A stretch of DNA of 33,773 bases, from positions 1 to 33,773 of the IMG/VR virus record IMGVR_UViG_3300005056_000019; one strand, given 5' to 3'. Numbering within the stretch: position 1 is the first letter of the stretch; the number at the start of each line of letters is the position of its first letter. The position numbers were made by a program, and so were the translations under genes. This stretch comes from a virus. Positions 1 through 33,773 of the stretch are shown here, one piece after another. The notes beneath the pieces are model-generated. The model did not search any database. It saw only the letters and a program-made list of their open reading frames with translations, and was not told the origin of the DNA.

Positions 1-99
1 TTAATATTATTAAGTTTATTTTAAAAAACATAATTGTTTATTATATTTTATTATTAACAATAATTTTTAATATTTGTTTATTATTTAATATAATTTTAA
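1..99. repeat. Left telomere: 99-bp terminal inverted repeat
   Basis: Positions 1-99 are an exact reverse complement of 33675-33773, and identity stops abruptly at base 100. Only 5 of 99 bases are G or C (14, 29, 36, 58, 76). Joined end to end, the two copies make a 198-bp perfect palindrome centred on TTAATTAA, the shape expected for a protelomerase target. An internal direct repeat TTGTTTATTAT occurs at 34-44 and 74-84, and TTATT-AAC-AATAA at 51-63 is a small hairpin. With the adjacent protelomerase gene, a hairpin telomere is the best reading; covalent closure itself cannot be seen in the sequence. Confidence 0.88.
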
Positions 100-8199: not shown

Positions 8200-8230
8200 T
8201 TCAAAGAACCTAACTAGCGAACTTTCAAGT

Positions 8231-8258
8231 ATGTCTCCGACATAGATGTCGGAGACAT
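8231..8258. other. Perfect 13-bp inverted repeat with 2-bp centre
   Basis: ATGTCTCCGACAT, AG, ATGTCGGAGACAT. It lies 32 bp after the early operon and 6 bp before repeat cluster C. No T run follows on either strand, so it is not a standard terminator; a protein-binding palindrome or a U-less terminator are both possible. The rest of the 8200-8550 gap is taken up by cluster C and a short leader for the portal gene. Confidence 0.65.
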
Positions 8259-8263
8259 AAAAT

Positions 8264-22547: not shown

Positions 22548-23987
22548 ATGAATCCATCTCTCTTGGAATACTTCTGTAAAGACGGACAAAAGGATGAAAT
22601 CTCAGCAATACTTGAAACTGCTGGTTGGTCTCCTGAAAATCCAAATATAAACGGATACCAGTTAAATACAATCTTTAACCAAATCTTCTCTCAACTGAAC
22701 TACTTAAAATCAAAAGGTTTTAGTTTTTGGCAAGATGACAAACCTTATGTAGCTACTGCAAACGACATAGATATTGTTAGACAAAATAACAAAATCTACT
22801 TTGCAAAACAAAACTCAAATACTGACTTATTAACTCCAAAAGCTCCAGCAACTAATCCTGACTTTTGGGGTGTACTTTATGATTTAGATAAATCTCTAGA
22901 TACTACTTATGCTCTAAAGACAGAATTATTGTTAAAAGCAGATATAGAGAAAATAAGTAATATATTTGAAAAGCCTAATAAGAATGTTTTATTTACAAAG
23001 TTTTCAGCAACTAGTTTTATTATTCCAATTGGCTTTACTATAAGAGTTGGTACTACATTAAATAAGTTGACTTCATCATATACATTAAGTTTAGATACAA
23101 ACCTAGATACTGGTGTTAAAATAGCTGGTACAGATTATTATGTTTATGCTAAAGCTGATAGCACTTTTTATATTAGTGCTAATAAAGCCATAACTGCTGA
23201 TAGGTTAATAGGTGGTTTTCATTATAGTTTAATCCCTGAAGCTGAAGCATTAACTGGTAACAAAACTGAAGCTGATATGGTTGCTATTCGTGGTATTAAT
23301 CAGTACAGTTTTTGGGACTTGAAGTTTCGTCCAGTTGCTAACCCTGAGGGTATGGTTTTTGTAAATGGTCGTTGGTATGACATCTATCTTTTAAATAGTG
23401 AACATATTACAAATGGTTCTTCAAAGGCTGGAGCGGTTATCGCTGGTGGAGTTGCAGATACTACAAATTATCGTGCTATTCCTAAAATACCTTTAGAGTT
23501 CGGTGGAGATGGTGCTACAAACTATGGTAAATTCACTTGGTTTCAAGCGTGTGAAATTGCAAAATCTCACGCCAAAGAGCTTATTCCTTATTCGGAATTT
23601 CCAACTATCGCGTATGGGGTAACAGAAAAAGTTTCTTCACAAACAAACGCTTATGAGGTTGTTATAGGAAAAATTGAACATTATTCAAATCTTACCTCTA
23701 AATATGGAATTGAACAAGCAACGGGTACTCAATGGTTATGGGGTGCAGACGTTGGCGGTAACAGAAGTGGAAATTCAACGGCGTGGGCTTGGAGAACGGG
23801 GCTAACTGATAATCGTGGTGATATTTACTCATTACATGCCAACCATATCACAGCGGTGCTTCTGGGTGCGTATCGTGGCAATGGTGTCCATGCTGGTTCT
23901 CGTGCCTCGAATTGGTACAGTTATGTTTGGAACTCGAGCTGGGACATTGGTTCTCGTTTCGCTTGTGACCACTTGGAACTTGTGTAA
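22548..23987 (+). CDS. DGR-diversified receptor-binding tail protein, C-type-lectin-like
   Basis: 479 residues. The N-terminal part (about 1-130) resembles tail-fibre attachment regions (GWSPENPNINGYQLNTIFNQ). The C-terminal domain (about 265-479) has the formylglycine-enzyme/C-type-lectin look used by DGR targets: GRWYDIYLLNSEHI, FTWFQACEIAKSHAKELIPY and TGTQWLWGADVGGNRSG. The last 45 residues are encoded by the variable repeat. Seven residues differ from the template-encoded version: Y442, G444, H448, Y457, S458, S464 and D466, six from Asn and one (G444) from Asp. Probably sits at the tail tip and contacts the host surface. Confidence 0.85.
   Translation: MNPSLLEYFCKDGQKDEISAILETAGWSPENPNINGYQLNTIFNQIFSQLNYLKSKGFSFWQDDKPYVATANDIDIVRQNNKIYFAKQNSNTDLLTPKAPATNPDFWGVLYDLDKSLDTTYALKTELLLKADIEKISNIFEKPNKNVLFTKFSATSFIIPIGFTIRVGTTLNKLTSSYTLSLDTNLDTGVKIAGTDYYVYAKADSTFYISANKAITADRLIGGFHYSLIPEAEALTGNKTEADMVAIRGINQYSFWDLKFRPVANPEGMVFVNGRWYDIYLLNSEHITNGSSKAGAVIAGGVADTTNYRAIPKIPLEFGGDGATNYGKFTWFQACEIAKSHAKELIPYSEFPTIAYGVTEKVSSQTNAYEVVIGKIEHYSNLTSKYGIEQATGTQWLWGADVGGNRSGNSTAWAWRTGLTDNRGDIYSLHANHITAVLLGAYRGNGVHAGSRASNWYSYVWNSSWDIGSRFACDHLELV
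23852..23961 (+). repeat. DGR variable repeat (VR)
   Basis: 110 bp aligned without gaps to the template repeat at 24353-24462 (offset 501). It differs at 23871, 23878, 23889, 23916, 23920, 23938 and 23943, and in all seven the template base is A. After 23961 there is a non-A mismatch, then a short match, which marks the initiation-of-homing end. The last stretch (GGTTCTCGTTTCG) is identical in both copies. Confidence 0.92.
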
Positions 23988-24007
23988 CGAACGAAAGTGA
24001 GTGGATT

Positions 24008-24379
24008 ATGAAACAGACCCCTAAAAACTTAATTATCATTGAAAAATATGAAGAGTTCGTAAACTATACTTATCCAGTATTACAAAATATACCTAGAAAA
24101 CATGGTGTAGTTAAAGAACGAATTTTACTTATTATCTTTGAACAAGTGGAACTGTTTTATAAGGCTTTAAAGTCGGGTCAAAAATCTAAGCTTTATGAAG
24201 CTGATGCAAATTTAGCAAGTATTAGATTTTATCTAAGATTTTTAGCAAATGATAAAAGAAAACTTATAAGTCAAAAGCAACATCAAACAGCAAGTATTAA
24301 ACTTGCAGAGGTTGGAAAGATTTTGCATAGTTGGATTAAGGGCAAACAAGATAGCGGTGCTTCTGGGTGCGAATCGTGA
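24008..24379 (+). CDS. avd: Accessory variability determinant (Avd)
   Basis: 123 residues, the usual length for Avd, a basic four-helix-bundle protein that binds the reverse transcriptase and template RNA. Helical segments include IIEKYEEFVNYTYPVLQNIP, ERILLIIFEQVELFYKALKS, EADANLASIRFYLRFLANDK and ASIKLAEVGKILHSWIKGK. It lies between VR and TR as in many DGRs. Its last nine codons lie inside the template repeat. Confidence 0.82.
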   Translation: MKQTPKNLIIIEKYEEFVNYTYPVLQNIPRKHGVVKERILLIIFEQVELFYKALKSGQKSKLYEADANLASIRFYLRFLANDKRKLISQKQHQTASIKLAEVGKILHSWIKGKQDSGASGCES

Positions 24380-24462
24380 CAATGGTGTCAATGCTGGTTC
24401 TCGTGCCTCGAATTGGAACAATTATGTTTGGAACTCGAACTGGAACATTGGTTCTCGTTTCG
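24353..24462 (+). repeat. DGR template repeat (TR)
   Basis: 110 bp identical to VR except at seven adenines. In the VR reading frame, TR would encode many Asn codons (AAT/AAC), the mutable codon favoured by DGRs. It overlaps the 3' end of avd (to 24379). It is never itself expected to be changed. Confidence 0.92.
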
Positions 24463-24636
24463 TTTGTGAGTATGTTTAAGAATTTTGCTCTCGTGAGTAG
24501 TCAAGGCTTTCACGGAGCGACCTTATTAATTATATGGTCAGCTTGTTTGTCCTACTTCGGTAAATACATTGAGAGGTTTGTAAAAGTTAGAGTAGCTTTA
24601 ATAGTGAAAAAACAAGACAACACACAAAGGTTAATA
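24463..24636 (+). ncRNA. DGR template RNA 3' spacer
   Basis: The 174 bp between TR and the reverse transcriptase start codon. In studied DGRs the RNA downstream of TR is needed to prime cDNA synthesis. The stretch is also open in the RT frame, but a start here would have to lie within TR, so I read it as non-coding. Confidence 0.55.
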
Positions 24637-25653
24637 ATGGGAAGAAGATATAAACATCTTTTTGAAAAAATAGTTGATATTGACAATCTAAGACTAGCAT
24701 ATAAAAAAGCCGTAAAAGGTGGGAATAGATATACAGCTGGACACTTAAAGTTCAAAGAAAACTTAGAAGCAAATCTTTTTCTTTTACAGGAACAATTAAA
24801 GAGTGAAACTTATGAGCATGGTAGATACCATACTTTTAAAGTGTATGAGCCTAAAGAGAGATTGATAGCTTCACTACCTTTTAGAGATAGAGTAATTCAA
24901 CATGCTATAAATAATATAGTTGAACCTATATTTGAAAATATGTTTTATAAAACTTCTTATGCTTGTAGAACAAATAAAGGCACTCACAAAGGTGTTAAAG
25001 ATGTTCAATCAAAGATAAGAAAACTCGCAAAAAATGGAACTGTTTATTATCTAAAAATGGACTTTTCAAAATATTTTCATTCAATAGATTTAAAGATATT
25101 GTTTGTTGAAATTGAGAAAAAAATAAGTGATAAAAAAGTTCTTGTTTTACTCAAAAAATTTGCAAGTGATAATAAAGTAGGTATTCCTATTGGTAACTTA
25201 TTAAGTCAATTATTTGCAAATATATACGGTCATATTTTTGATAGGTTTATCAAGACAAAAATCAAAGCTAGGTATTACTTTAGATACATGGATGATACTG
25301 TAATTTTATGTAATGACAATTTACATTTAAGACGAACTCAAAAACTGCTGAAAATATTCAGTAGATTGTACATGAAGCTAAAGTTTAGTCATTGGCATAT
25401 TAGTTCAATAGTTAAGCCTTTGAACTTTTTAGGTTATAGAATTACGAGTAATTACAAACTCATAAGAAAAGATAGTGTTGTTCGTGCAAAGCGAAAAATT
25501 AAGAGATACAAAAAACAAAATGATGTAACTAAGTTAAAGCTATTTTTAGCCTCGTGGAGTGGACACTTACGGAGTGCTGATAGTTGGAACTTAGTTAAAT
25601 TTATAAATCAAGAGGAGCAATTATGCAAAATGAAATTACAGTTAGTCCATTAG
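24637..25653 (+). CDS. DGR reverse transcriptase
   Basis: 338 residues from the ATG at 24637 (AAAGG 6 nt upstream); the frame is open further back to 24367, but that part lies in TR. Fingers: KFKENLEANLFLLQEQLKSE, VYEPKERLIASLPFRDRVIQ and SYACRTNKGTHKG. The catalytic YMDD is at 217-220. IPIGNLLSQLFANIY (183-197) carries the SQ signature typical of DGR enzymes in place of the QG of group II and retroviral RTs. It would copy TR RNA with errors at adenines. No maturase or endonuclease domain is present. Confidence 0.92.
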   Translation: MGRRYKHLFEKIVDIDNLRLAYKKAVKGGNRYTAGHLKFKENLEANLFLLQEQLKSETYEHGRYHTFKVYEPKERLIASLPFRDRVIQHAINNIVEPIFENMFYKTSYACRTNKGTHKGVKDVQSKIRKLAKNGTVYYLKMDFSKYFHSIDLKILFVEIEKKISDKKVLVLLKKFASDNKVGIPIGNLLSQLFANIYGHIFDRFIKTKIKARYYFRYMDDTVILCNDNLHLRRTQKLLKIFSRLYMKLKFSHWHISSIVKPLNFLGYRITSNYKLIRKDSVVRAKRKIKRYKKQNDVTKLKLFLASWSGHLRSADSWNLVKFINQEEQLCKMKLQLVH

Positions 25654-27834: not shown

Positions 27835-28638
27835 TTGAAGAAAAAACTTACATCTGCATTTGGGTGGATTGGCGGAAAAAGCAAACTCGCAAATGAAATC
27901 ATAAATATGCTTCCTGAACATAAATTATATATAGAAGTTTTCGGTGGTGCATTAAATATATTATATGCTAAAAGAAAATCAAAACTTGAAGTTGTTAATG
28001 ACATCAACTCAGAACTAATCAACCTACATAGAGCCATACGAAACAATCCTCAAACTTTACAGATGTACATGAAACACTTGCTTATATCAAGAGAGATATT
28101 TGATGATATAAAGCATGGTAGAATGAAACCTAAAAACAACATAGAACGAGCCTCTTTTTATCTGTTCCTACTCACTCAAAGCTTTGGAGCTAAACAAGAT
28201 AACTTCGGCATGAATGCAAAAGGTATGACCTCTCCAGTAAACATATACAAATCTTACATGAAGTGGTCACATAGATTAAGAGGTGTTACTATTGAAAACA
28301 AATCCTTTGAAGATTTAATCACGACCTATGATAATCCTGATGCCTTTTTTTATTGCGACCCACCATATGTAGAAACTGAAAGTTATTATAAACATACTGG
28401 AGGTTTTGGAATCAAGGAACATACTCTTTTAGCTTCTTCTTTAAAGGCCTCATCTGCAAAGTTTCTAGTGAGCTACAATGACCATGAACTCATAAGAGAG
28501 TTATATAAAGATTTTAATATCTTGGTTACAAAAGAGATAGAGTATACACTAGGTAAGAATGCACACGGTAAAGCGAAAACAGTAAGAGAGATTTACATCA
28601 CGAACTATGAGGTCAAAAAGAATCTCTTTAGTATGTGA
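27835..28638 (+). CDS. DNA adenine N6-methyltransferase, D12 class
   Basis: 267 residues from a TTG start with AGAGGG upstream. Motif I: AFGWIGGKSKLANEI, then YIEVFGGALNILYAKRK; motif IV: FFYCDPPYVETESYY. NDINSELINLHRAI and AKQDNFGMNA match Dam-like D12 enzymes. It would methylate adenines, probably to hide the phage genome from host nucleases or to regulate. No restriction partner lies nearby. Its stop codon is embedded in repeat cluster D. Confidence 0.82.
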   Translation: MKKKLTSAFGWIGGKSKLANEIINMLPEHKLYIEVFGGALNILYAKRKSKLEVVNDINSELINLHRAIRNNPQTLQMYMKHLLISREIFDDIKHGRMKPKNNIERASFYLFLLTQSFGAKQDNFGMNAKGMTSPVNIYKSYMKWSHRLRGVTIENKSFEDLITTYDNPDAFFYCDPPYVETESYYKHTGGFGIKEHTLLASSLKASSAKFLVSYNDHELIRELYKDFNILVTKEIEYTLGKNAHGKAKTVREIYITNYEVKKNLFSM

Positions 28639-28827: not shown

Positions 28828-29538
28828 TTAAAAATGGTTTGCTAATTCTAGACCAAAGTTCTCGGTCATATTTGATAAGATAAAGTTTCTTTCATCAGCT
28901 GGGAGCTTCTCTAGGTTTTTAATCCACCTATCAGATTTTCTTTTTATTCGCTCTCTTTCACGAAACCCTGAACCGATATAACTGTAATCATGTTTGATAT
29001 AATCATCAGGATTGAAGTTACACCAAAGAGCTTCAGTTCTCACACCTTTACGAGTCATAGCATTAAAAGTGAATAAATTCCACTTATCTCTGTTCAAAAG
29101 CTTTGCATACAGTTCTGACTCATAACCACTCAACATGACAAAGCAAGGTAACTCATCAAGTATCTTTATGAGATTAATATGGTCGTTATCGTTGTACTCA
29201 TATTTGTATAAATCTTTTTTACTCTTTCTAGTTTCAAATACATAAGGTGGGTCAACATATACAACTTCATCGCCTTTGAAGTTATATGATTCTAAGAACT
29301 CTTCACATTTTCCATTTATGAGAGATATCGTATCATCATCTTTAGCGATGGAGTACCTTTTGAATTTTTCAAGTGATGCAGTATCAATTTCTATAGCGAT
29401 GGTGCACTCGCTTTTCTTTTTTCTTATGAGGATATTTCCACCACCAAGATGAGTCTCTATATAAACTCTATGCTTTGGCATTTTGTTAATGATTTGTTGA
29501 TGCACACCACTAGCCCCTTTCCCACCGTTGTAGTTCAT
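28828..29538 (-). CDS. Second DNA adenine methyltransferase-like protein (D12 type)
   Basis: 236 residues. MNYNGGKGASGVHQQIINKM is motif I, YIETHLGGGNILIRKK the following region, and VVYVDPPYVFETRK motif IV. A long basic tail (FRERERIKRKSDRWIKNLEK) follows. It is transcribed leftward, with its start on the stop of the cytosine methylase gene (one-base overlap). Together with the other two it makes an unusually rich methylase set for a 34-kb element. Confidence 0.76.
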   Translation of the reverse strand: MNYNGGKGASGVHQQIINKMPKHRVYIETHLGGGNILIRKKKSECTIAIEIDTASLEKFKRYSIAKDDDTISLINGKCEEFLESYNFKGDEVVYVDPPYVFETRKSKKDLYKYEYNDNDHINLIKILDELPCFVMLSGYESELYAKLLNRDKWNLFTFNAMTRKGVRTEALWCNFNPDDYIKHDYSYIGSGFRERERIKRKSDRWIKNLEKLPADERNFILSNMTENFGLELANHF

Positions 29539-30314
29539 TATGCACTTTCTCGTTTTCGTTGAGCTCTTTTCCTACAACTAGAATCGTAATACTTTTTACG
29601 ACCTATCAAAACTCTTTTACATCCACATGGACATCTTTCATGTGAGTCAGCTGCAGAACTTTTATGTGACGGTCCCTGGTCAATAGTTTGTGACATGTTG
29701 GTTGCGATTTTAACTGCATCTGCTAAAACTCGACCAATTACAAGAGGTACTCCATTTCCTACTGCTTTTTTCTTACCAGCTACATTAAAATCAGGTAAAT
29801 CAAAACTATCCTCTAATCCTTGCAAGTAACAAAGCTCTCTGAAGCTTCTATCATCACTAGCTAATGCACATGAGTTCTCAACTCCCTCCATACTTCCTCT
29901 TGGTATGTCTAAATATAAATCATCTTTAGAACCAAACTGAATATGTCTTAAACGACTTGTATCAGAATACCAACCTTGATTAATATCTATTCGCTGATGA
30001 GAGTAATCATCTATTACAACATCAGGTACACCTTTGACATTTTCAAGTAGCCACCAACTCGGCTCGGCTTCCTTAACTACTCTCATAAACTCATCCACCA
30101 TCTCAAGCGAGTAAGTGCCTTTATCTCTTTTGAGTGTGCTAAAATCTTGGCAAGGAGAGCCTCCTATAATTCCATCAAACTTATTAGCTATCGCTTTAAA
30201 GTTTCGTATGTCTTGACCCAGTATCAAATCTCCAGCAGATACAACACAAAAACCAGCTTCTTTAAAAGCTCGGTCTAATAATCCAATTCCACTAAAGAGG
30301 CTTAGAACTAACAT
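29538..30314 (-). CDS. DNA cytosine C5-methyltransferase with C-terminal zinc-ribbon-like tail
   Basis: 258 residues. LSLFSGIGLLDRAF (motif I), GGSPCQDFS (motif IV, catalytic Cys), LLENVKGVP (motif VI) and KKAVGNGVPLVIGRVLADAV (motif X) are all present. The last part, after a linker, is a Cys-rich tail (RCPCGCKRVLIGRKKYYDSS). The linker is itself encoded by repeat cluster E, as if the repeat had entered the gene. It would protect the phage DNA; no cognate nuclease is visible. Confidence 0.82.
   Translation of the reverse strand: MLVLSLFSGIGLLDRAFKEAGFCVVSAGDLILGQDIRNFKAIANKFDGIIGGSPCQDFSTLKRDKGTYSLEMVDEFMRVVKEAEPSWWLLENVKGVPDVVIDDYSHQRIDINQGWYSDTSRLRHIQFGSKDDLYLDIPRGSMEGVENSCALASDDRSFRELCYLQGLEDSFDLPDFNVAGKKKAVGNGVPLVIGRVLADAVKIATNMSQTIDQGPSHKSSAADSHERCPCGCKRVLIGRKKYYDSSCRKRAQRKRESA
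29641..29712 (+). repeat. 24-bp repeat cluster E (3 units) inside a gene
   Basis: TGTGAG (29641), TGTGAC (29665) and TGTGAC (29689), on the plus strand although the surrounding gene runs on the minus strand. The block encodes the linker between the methyltransferase core and its zinc-ribbon-like tail. It closely resembles cluster A (1435). Confidence 0.75.
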
Positions 30315-33014: not shown

Positions 33015-33629
33015 TTACTCTCCTATTTCTCTTTTAATGTAGTTCACTAATTCAGTCCATTGCTCCATGATTGAAGCTGACTTTTGATTTTTTCTTTTAC
33101 CATAAGCACTTCTAAGAATTGGAGCAGAACTAAGATAGTCCTCAATTCCTAATCCCATATCCATAGAGTTGTTAAATAGCTCTGTTTGCTTTAGTTCAAA
33201 GAAAGCTTTGATATTAAAGTCTTTCATGCTCTCTTGGATATGCTTGAAGTCATTAGGCTTCTTAGTTTTAGTAGCAATAACAATAACATTGTCATTGTAT
33301 TTAGATAGCTCATCAACTGCACTAATGCTTCTCTTTAAAAAGCTGATGTGATTAACAACTGGGATAATAACCAAGTCACATCTCTTAATTATAGAGATAG
33401 TTCCAGCTTCAATGTATCCACCTAAGTCAATAACAGTATTAGGGAGCTTAGTGAAGTCCAACTCTGCCATCTCGCTCACTGGCATTACTCGTGCATTCTC
33501 ATGTATCTCTTCAACTACATCATCATCATTAGTAAGGATAATACTATCTGTAGCCTTAGCAATGTTAAGACTTATCGGTGTTTTTCCCGTACTTCCTTTT
33601 TTACCAGCTATTACAATAACCATTTTCAA
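33015..33629 (-). CDS. parA: ParA-family partition ATPase
   Basis: 204 residues. The deviant Walker A GKKGSTGKTP (residues 9-18) has the signature lysine K11; NTVIDLGGYIEAGT is the Walker B region, and LVIIPVVNHISFLKRSI follows. Small size without an N-terminal HTH fits type Ib ParA. GAGGAG lies before the ATG, and a TATAAT-like box lies between the gene and the right telomere. With the RHH partner it would segregate the linear plasmid. Confidence 0.85.
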   Translation of the reverse strand: MKMVIVIAGKKGSTGKTPISLNIAKATDSIILTNDDDVVEEIHENARVMPVSEMAELDFTKLPNTVIDLGGYIEAGTISIIKRCDLVIIPVVNHISFLKRSISAVDELSKYNDNVIVIATKTKKPNDFKHIQESMKDFNIKAFFELKQTELFNNSMDMGLGIEDYLSSAPILRSAYGKRKNQKSASIMEQWTELVNYIKREIGE

Positions 33630-33674: not shown

Positions 33675-33773
33675 TTAAAATTATATTAAATAATAAACAA
33701 ATATTAAAAATTATTGTTAATAATAAAATATAATAAACAATTATGTTTTTTAAAATAAACTTAATAATATTAA
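33675..33773. repeat. Right telomere: 99-bp terminal inverted repeat
   Basis: Exact reverse complement of positions 1-99. The parA gene begins 46 bp inside it, as the protelomerase gene does at 50 bp on the left. The end of the sequence coincides with the centre of the predicted telomere palindrome. Confidence 0.88.

Follow-up and report, generated by a model that had tools for sequence, protein, structure and literature searches.

The locus at positions 22,548–25,653 of the window (the whole stretch of viral DNA that was analyzed, 33,773 nucleotides long) raises the question of whether an apparently intact diversity-generating retroelement (DGR) has been used by its phage, and what distinguishes it from the systems that are already known.

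Organization of the DGR Locus

The mtd gene with its variable repeat (VR), avd, the template repeat (TR), the template-RNA spacer, and the reverse transcriptase (RT) gene are all present and uninterrupted. The first-pass annotation was therefore right to call the element intact, and the spacer, which it omitted, can be added to the BPP-1-type parts. The features, all on the + strand, are as follows:

22548..23987, +, mtd, predicted receptor-binding tail protein of 479 aa with a C-terminal C-type-lectin variable domain
23852..23968, +, VR, mutagenic homing target, matching TR over 117 bp without gaps
23947..23968, +, IMH-like 3′ end of VR, putative boundary; the TR counterpart (24448–24468) has no A
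23987..24002, +, post-VR hairpin, AC-GA-AC-GAAA-GT-GA-GT, defined by a 23-locus alignment and found at the same place as the BPP-1 hairpin
24008..24379, +, avd, 123-aa accessory variability determinant
24353..24469, +, TR, template repeat, sharing 27 nt with the 3′ end of avd, among them its stop codon
24488..24621, +, template-RNA spacer, probable RT-Avd binding and priming region (role by homology)
24637..25653, +, DGR reverse transcriptase, 338 aa, likely start ATG 24637, motifs YMDD and IGNLLSQ

The mtd product matches Pfam mtd_2nd (2.5e-14) and a PHROG tail protein family (6e-77). Its residues 140–478 match PDB 1yu0–1yu4, the solved Mtd structures of BPP-1-type phages, with an E-value of about 1e-44, and this match, together with the aligned variable residues, points to a C-type-lectin variable domain. 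The avd product, whose normal length had been noted, matches Pfam bAvd (8.6e-38), NCBIfam NF033474 (104.6 bits; cut-off 80), and PDB 4dwl (8e-30). The spacer is a full-length match to Rfam RF03022, Phage_DGR (91.2 bits; gathering threshold 50). The RT matches RVT_1 (4e-20), the PHROG RT family (8e-107), and the DGR RT in PDB 8ub7 (1.6e-87), and it carries both the YMDD and the SQ-type motif reported earlier. Since the alignment with the solved DGR RT begins at the first residue, ATG 24637 is the likely start. A DGR-type RT, an adenine-biased VR/TR pair, Avd, and a structured phage-type RNA spacer thus occur together in one locus.

The closest well-studied counterpart is the BPP-1 DGR (mtd-avd-TR-brt). 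The two elements share gene order, an Mtd C-type-lectin target, Avd, RT (47% identical to BPP-1 Brt), the Rfam type of the spacer RNA, adenine specificity, the positions of the variable residues, and a GAAA-loop hairpin past VR. They differ in that the window TR overlaps avd by 27 nt, the window Mtd has approximately 100 extra N-terminal residues, and the phage backbone is different, with a contractile tail and a linear replicon. The TR-avd overlap is also found in L003 and L083, whereas most other relatives have an avd that stops short of TR. The Vibrio telomere phage VP58.5 (VHML group) likewise has a DGR in its tail module, a contractile tail (tail sheath annotated), and a telomere resolvase (PF16684, 4e-46). 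Nevertheless, its target is annotated as SUMF1/EgtB/PvdO type, its hairpin is a perfect 7-bp one, and its RT is more distant (41%). The Campylobacterota-linked loci L003, L083, L084, and L085 have the same mtd-avd-TR-RT order and the interrupted hairpin described below; they differ in their VR sequences and are known solely as metagenome contigs or MAGs. A search by DNA for near relatives among isolated phages found none.

Adenine-Specific Differences between VR and TR

The first-pass annotation had described VR and TR as 110-bp repeats that differ at seven sites, all of them adenines in TR. Between VR 23852–23961 and TR 24353–24462, this is what the sequence contains: the differing TR adenines are 24372, 24379, 24390, 24417, 24421, 24439, and 24444, and all seven differences change the encoded Mtd residue, at the same positions as had been claimed (442, 444, 448, 457, 458, 464, and 466). 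As 22 of the 110 TR bases are A, the chance of all seven differences falling on adenines is low (P = 5.4e-6). The length has to be corrected. The full ungapped repeat is 117 bp long and extends to 23968/24469, with eight mismatches, seven of them at TR A (P = 3.5e-5). The eighth, VR 23962 C versus TR 24463 T, is the first base beyond the 110-bp limit, so the claim of adenine-only substitution holds within 110 bp, fails over 117 bp, and depends on where the repeat is cut.

The non-adenine mismatch sits 7 nt from the 3′ end of the repeat, in the IMH zone. In L003 and L083, both TR and VR have C at this site, which indicates that the T arose in the window TR and has not moved to VR. In BPP-1, TR markers in the IMH zone do not transfer (PMC3240598). 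The IMH-like boundary was placed by two observations, namely that VR/TR identity stops there in family members and that the sole non-A mismatch (23962) lies inside it.

The TR adenines occupy positions 1 and 2 of AAY codons, except at residues 435, 444, 459, 467, and 474. With the AAY layout, adenine changes cannot produce stop codons. The seven changed residues align with residues 344, 346, 350, 359, 360, 366, and 368 of BPP-1 Mtd, all of which are encoded at BPP-1 TR adenines.

Evidence of Use from Related Loci

Adenine bias by itself is a sign of past mutagenic homing and is silent on timing. The dating of homing from this bias alone was dropped, and comparison with relatives was used instead. 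Four bases, none an A, distinguish the TR of the window from that of L003. One is the IMH site; at the other three, which lie outside the IMH, both VRs have copied their own TR (3/3), which means that homing took place after the two lineages split. The TR of L083 differs from that of the window at 1 base, and its VR at 15, with 14 of these at TR adenines. The check proposed earlier, a comparison of VRs among relatives with a constant TR, is provided by L024, L025, and L026. Their contigs are 95–98% alike and their TRs identical, and their VRs differ at 6–14 sites, all adenines. Across the 23 family loci, 243 of the 253 VR/TR mismatches are at TR A, and of 574 non-A differences between the TRs of family members, 563 recur in the corresponding VRs (the pairs are not independent). 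Such comparisons point to transfer of information from TR to VR, and the family record reads as mutagenic homing followed by further homing. The suggestion of recent or ongoing homing is therefore supported as regards recent use, through these relatives (L003, L083, and L024/L025/L026) and not through the bias alone. Only 7 of the 22 TR adenines differ in the window VR; a single homing event would suffice for this, which weighs against the reading of recent use.

Taken together, the sequence comparisons indicate a complete BPP-1-type DGR that was very probably functional in recent phage generations. It is a real and intact element, evidently used, and of an already known kind. By analogy with BPP-1, the avd-TR-spacer transcript would be bound by RT and Avd, with priming in the spacer, and RT would copy TR, inserting random bases opposite adenines. 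The cDNA would then replace VR at the 3′ end of mtd, altering residues on the presumed receptor-binding face. Transfer would begin inside the IMH, so that the near-end TR base 24463 would not be passed on. The hairpin, 18 nt past VR and on the sense strand (the cDNA-pairing strand), may aid homing.

It is rather unlikely that the DGR is structurally complete and now silent, with VR held unchanged by selection or by lost expression since an old rewrite. The T at TR 24463 is what would be expected if TR had drifted after the last homing, and decay does occur among the relatives: L174 has lost TR and most of RT, L005 has lost most of avd and TR, and L179 and L181 retain VR without any DGR. However, the T lies in the part of the IMH where no marker transfer was seen in BPP-1 (PMC3240598), the window element has every ORF and the RNA in intact form, and non-A differences other than this one have not accumulated. 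The idea that VR and TR are a plain duplication, altered by ordinary mutation and gene conversion with no mutagenic reverse transcription involved, could account for VR tracking TR at non-A sites by gene conversion alone, but its probability is negligible in view of the seven of seven differences at A here (P = 5e-6), the 243/253 family-wide, and the linked RT, Avd, and Phage_DGR RNA.

An Interrupted Hairpin Downstream of VR

As a DGR, the element is another example of a well-studied kind, and the target hairpin is the part worth following. In BPP-1, efficient homing requires a hairpin downstream of VR that has a stem of 8 bp and a GAAA loop, and other phage DGRs are described as having GC-rich stems of 7–10 bp with GRNA loops (PMC3240598). 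The window has a GAAA loop at 23993–23996 on the sense strand, as the GRNA rule predicts (Guo 2011, PMC3240598). The uninterrupted GC-rich stem of 7–10 bp given in the same paper is not found; in the first 75 nt downstream of VR, perfect stems reach 4 bp at most. Instead, the hairpin has as its first base the final base of the mtd stop codon and is formed by pairs 23987–24002, 23988–24001, 23991–23998, and 23992–23997, with a tandem G·A (23989–23990 with 23999–24000) between the outer and the inner two. In BPP-1, a perfect GC stem of 8 bp starts 4 nt past the annotated VR end, whereas the window hairpin has 2 + 2 pairs around the tandem G·A and starts 18 nt past VR. This interrupted target hairpin is the unusual feature of the window DGR.

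The hairpin was aligned across 23 loci, the window and 22 relatives, which gave 20 distinct rows. Columns without any variation are limited to GA, G, AA, and GA, that is, the tandem G·A and the GNAA loop. The four flanking pairs covary: 98.8% of cells are paired, and 26 cells are changed on both sides (shuffled mean 6.4). The covariation score is 0.938, against 0.347 ± 0.052 after shuffling, and none of 500 shuffles reaches it. When the hairpin was slid, 5–50% of cells were paired. The outer stem has seven pairs in L085 and four in L009, one outer pair is broken in L084, and the arms occur in either order among relatives. Searched for in strict form, the motif was found 38 times in 2.77 Mb, both strands included; 24 of these occurrences are no more than 60 nt past a detected VR end, and all 24 are in the sense orientation. 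Where one strand has G·A, its complement has T·C, so good folding is expected of the sense strand alone.

Thermodynamic support was sought for the window hairpin with standard DNA and RNA parameters and was absent. With DNA energies, the hairpin had no stability on either strand, and its RNA folding was no better than that of shuffles (z 0.18). Consequently, it is covariation that carries the window hairpin. GNNA mini-hairpins are reported to be unusually stable when they have at least two G-C pairs (PMC4686876), and the standard energy models used here omit this stability. Several relatives (e.g., L009, L018, and L024) have the two G-C pairs; the window cap consists of A-T and C-G and does not.

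Distribution of the Hairpin among DGRs

Uninterrupted stems were recovered in BPP-1; in VP58.5, ACA1, BalMu-1, 1F273_PE002, YPCBV-1, and three plasmids, where some are shorter or have a G-T pair; and in most of L185–L198. On the RT trees, the interrupted hairpin is found throughout the clade of the window with one exception, L032, which has a perfect stem. A second group with the interrupted hairpin comprises L024, L028, L030, and L031, and related internal purine loops occur in L022 and L029. Perfect stems occur in BPP-1 and its closest relatives on the trees. In the first RT tree, BPP-1 appeared as an exception in its own clade; this reading was dropped because, with the loci from the Mtd scan, BPP-1 joins the perfect-stem group. 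The interrupted hairpin had one or two origins, and the order of the two groups is unsettled on the RT trees.

The link between hairpin and DGR is good, not perfect. L179 and L181, which have mtd with a replaced 3′ end and no DGR, lack a hairpin of the interrupted kind directly after VR, and L182, L174, and L005 keep the motif with an absent or broken DGR. DGR target searches based on perfect inverted repeats will miss the groups with interrupted hairpins. No report of mismatched DGR hairpins was found in the literature, in a search of open-licence PMC papers.

Several of these loci have features of their own. In L022 and L029, one TR serves two VRs, and the hairpins that follow have non-adjacent G·A pairs and a different internal purine loop. 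L005 (3940–4020) has a deletion of avd and TR that leaves the first codons of avd running into RT, apparently at a short shared sequence, with the hairpin kept. L174 (5001–6992) has mtd in a phage contig without TR and most of RT. The mtd genes of L179 (5001–6850) and L181 (1–830) stop immediately beyond the VR homology, where the sequence passes into another gene. L182 (861–2040) retains the hairpin, and no avd or RT was detected there.

Possible Role of the Hairpin

The target hairpin may act as a cruciform or as a single-strand hairpin. In BPP-1, T7 endonuclease cut both strands, and the authors kept the term “hairpin/cruciform” (PMC3240598); the BPP-1 target is active in both orientations. 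A 2026 study in E. coli found that homing is favoured when the cDNA-complementary strand is the lagging-strand template, and it was proposed that the stem-loop holds this strand open (PMC12875486). We suggest tentatively, with confidence that falls just short of an even balance, that in two Mtd-type DGR groups, including that of the window, the target hairpin is built on a conserved tandem sheared G·A and a GNAA loop and folds on the sense strand only. The tandem G·A would confine folding to the sense strand, and the hairpin would act in single-stranded DNA. If this is true, the homing machinery recognizes a single-strand hairpin on the cDNA-pairing strand and not a symmetric cruciform. Action on the sense strand would agree with the lagging-strand result in E. 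coli (PMC12875486) and would conflict with a need for a symmetric cruciform. Given the structure on both strands in BPP-1, it is possible that the two systems are different or that the choice of strand is of no importance in BPP-1. A covarying hairpin that is naturally strand-asymmetric allows a direct test of cruciform versus single-strand hairpin.

Rather than a DNA hairpin that serves homing, the motif might be an mRNA structure or a protein site, with a role, for example, in translational control of avd. Five nucleotides separate it from the avd start codon, its standard DNA energies are weak, and some relatives fold well as RNA (L085, z −3.25; L024, z −3.14). This alternative is nevertheless improbable, if less so than a silent element. 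The position, the distance from VR, and the GRNA-type loop fit the experimentally required DNA hairpin of BPP-1 (PMC3240598), perfect stems stand at the same place in related phages, and L182 keeps the motif although avd was not found there.

Replicon Setting

The first 99 bases of the window (1–99; 5% GC) are the exact reverse complement of the last 99 (33675–33773). The first gene (150–1385, +) encodes a telomere resolvase (Pfam PF16684, 8e-14) with a weak PDB match to ResT, and the right-end gene (33015–33629, −) has a weak ParA-like match. With these features, the window is likely to be a complete linear phage-plasmid whose telomeres are hairpins. In N15 and VP58.5, the lysogen is a linear plasmid. 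The sister phage contig of L003 (L204/L205, L207, and L208; 32,332 bp) carries a resolvase at the corresponding position, 47–50% identical, and a terminal inverted repeat of 104/110 bases (L207, 1–110), with 185 extra bases at the right end (L208). In view of the terminal inverted repeats, the telomere resolvase, and the resolvase of the sister contig, the lysogen is probably a linear plasmid and not an integrated prophage. The relatives found in MAGs belong to Campylobacterota.

Two further regions of the window deserve mention. Short ORFs at 28828–30314 (−) have partial matches to D12 adenine and C5 cytosine methyltransferases and are perhaps fragments; a full-length D12-type methyltransferase (27835–28638) adjoins them. 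A 30-bp near-perfect palindrome at 8230–8259, TATGTCTCCGACATAGATGTCGGAGACATA, follows the primase/helicase gene and is a possible origin or regulatory site.
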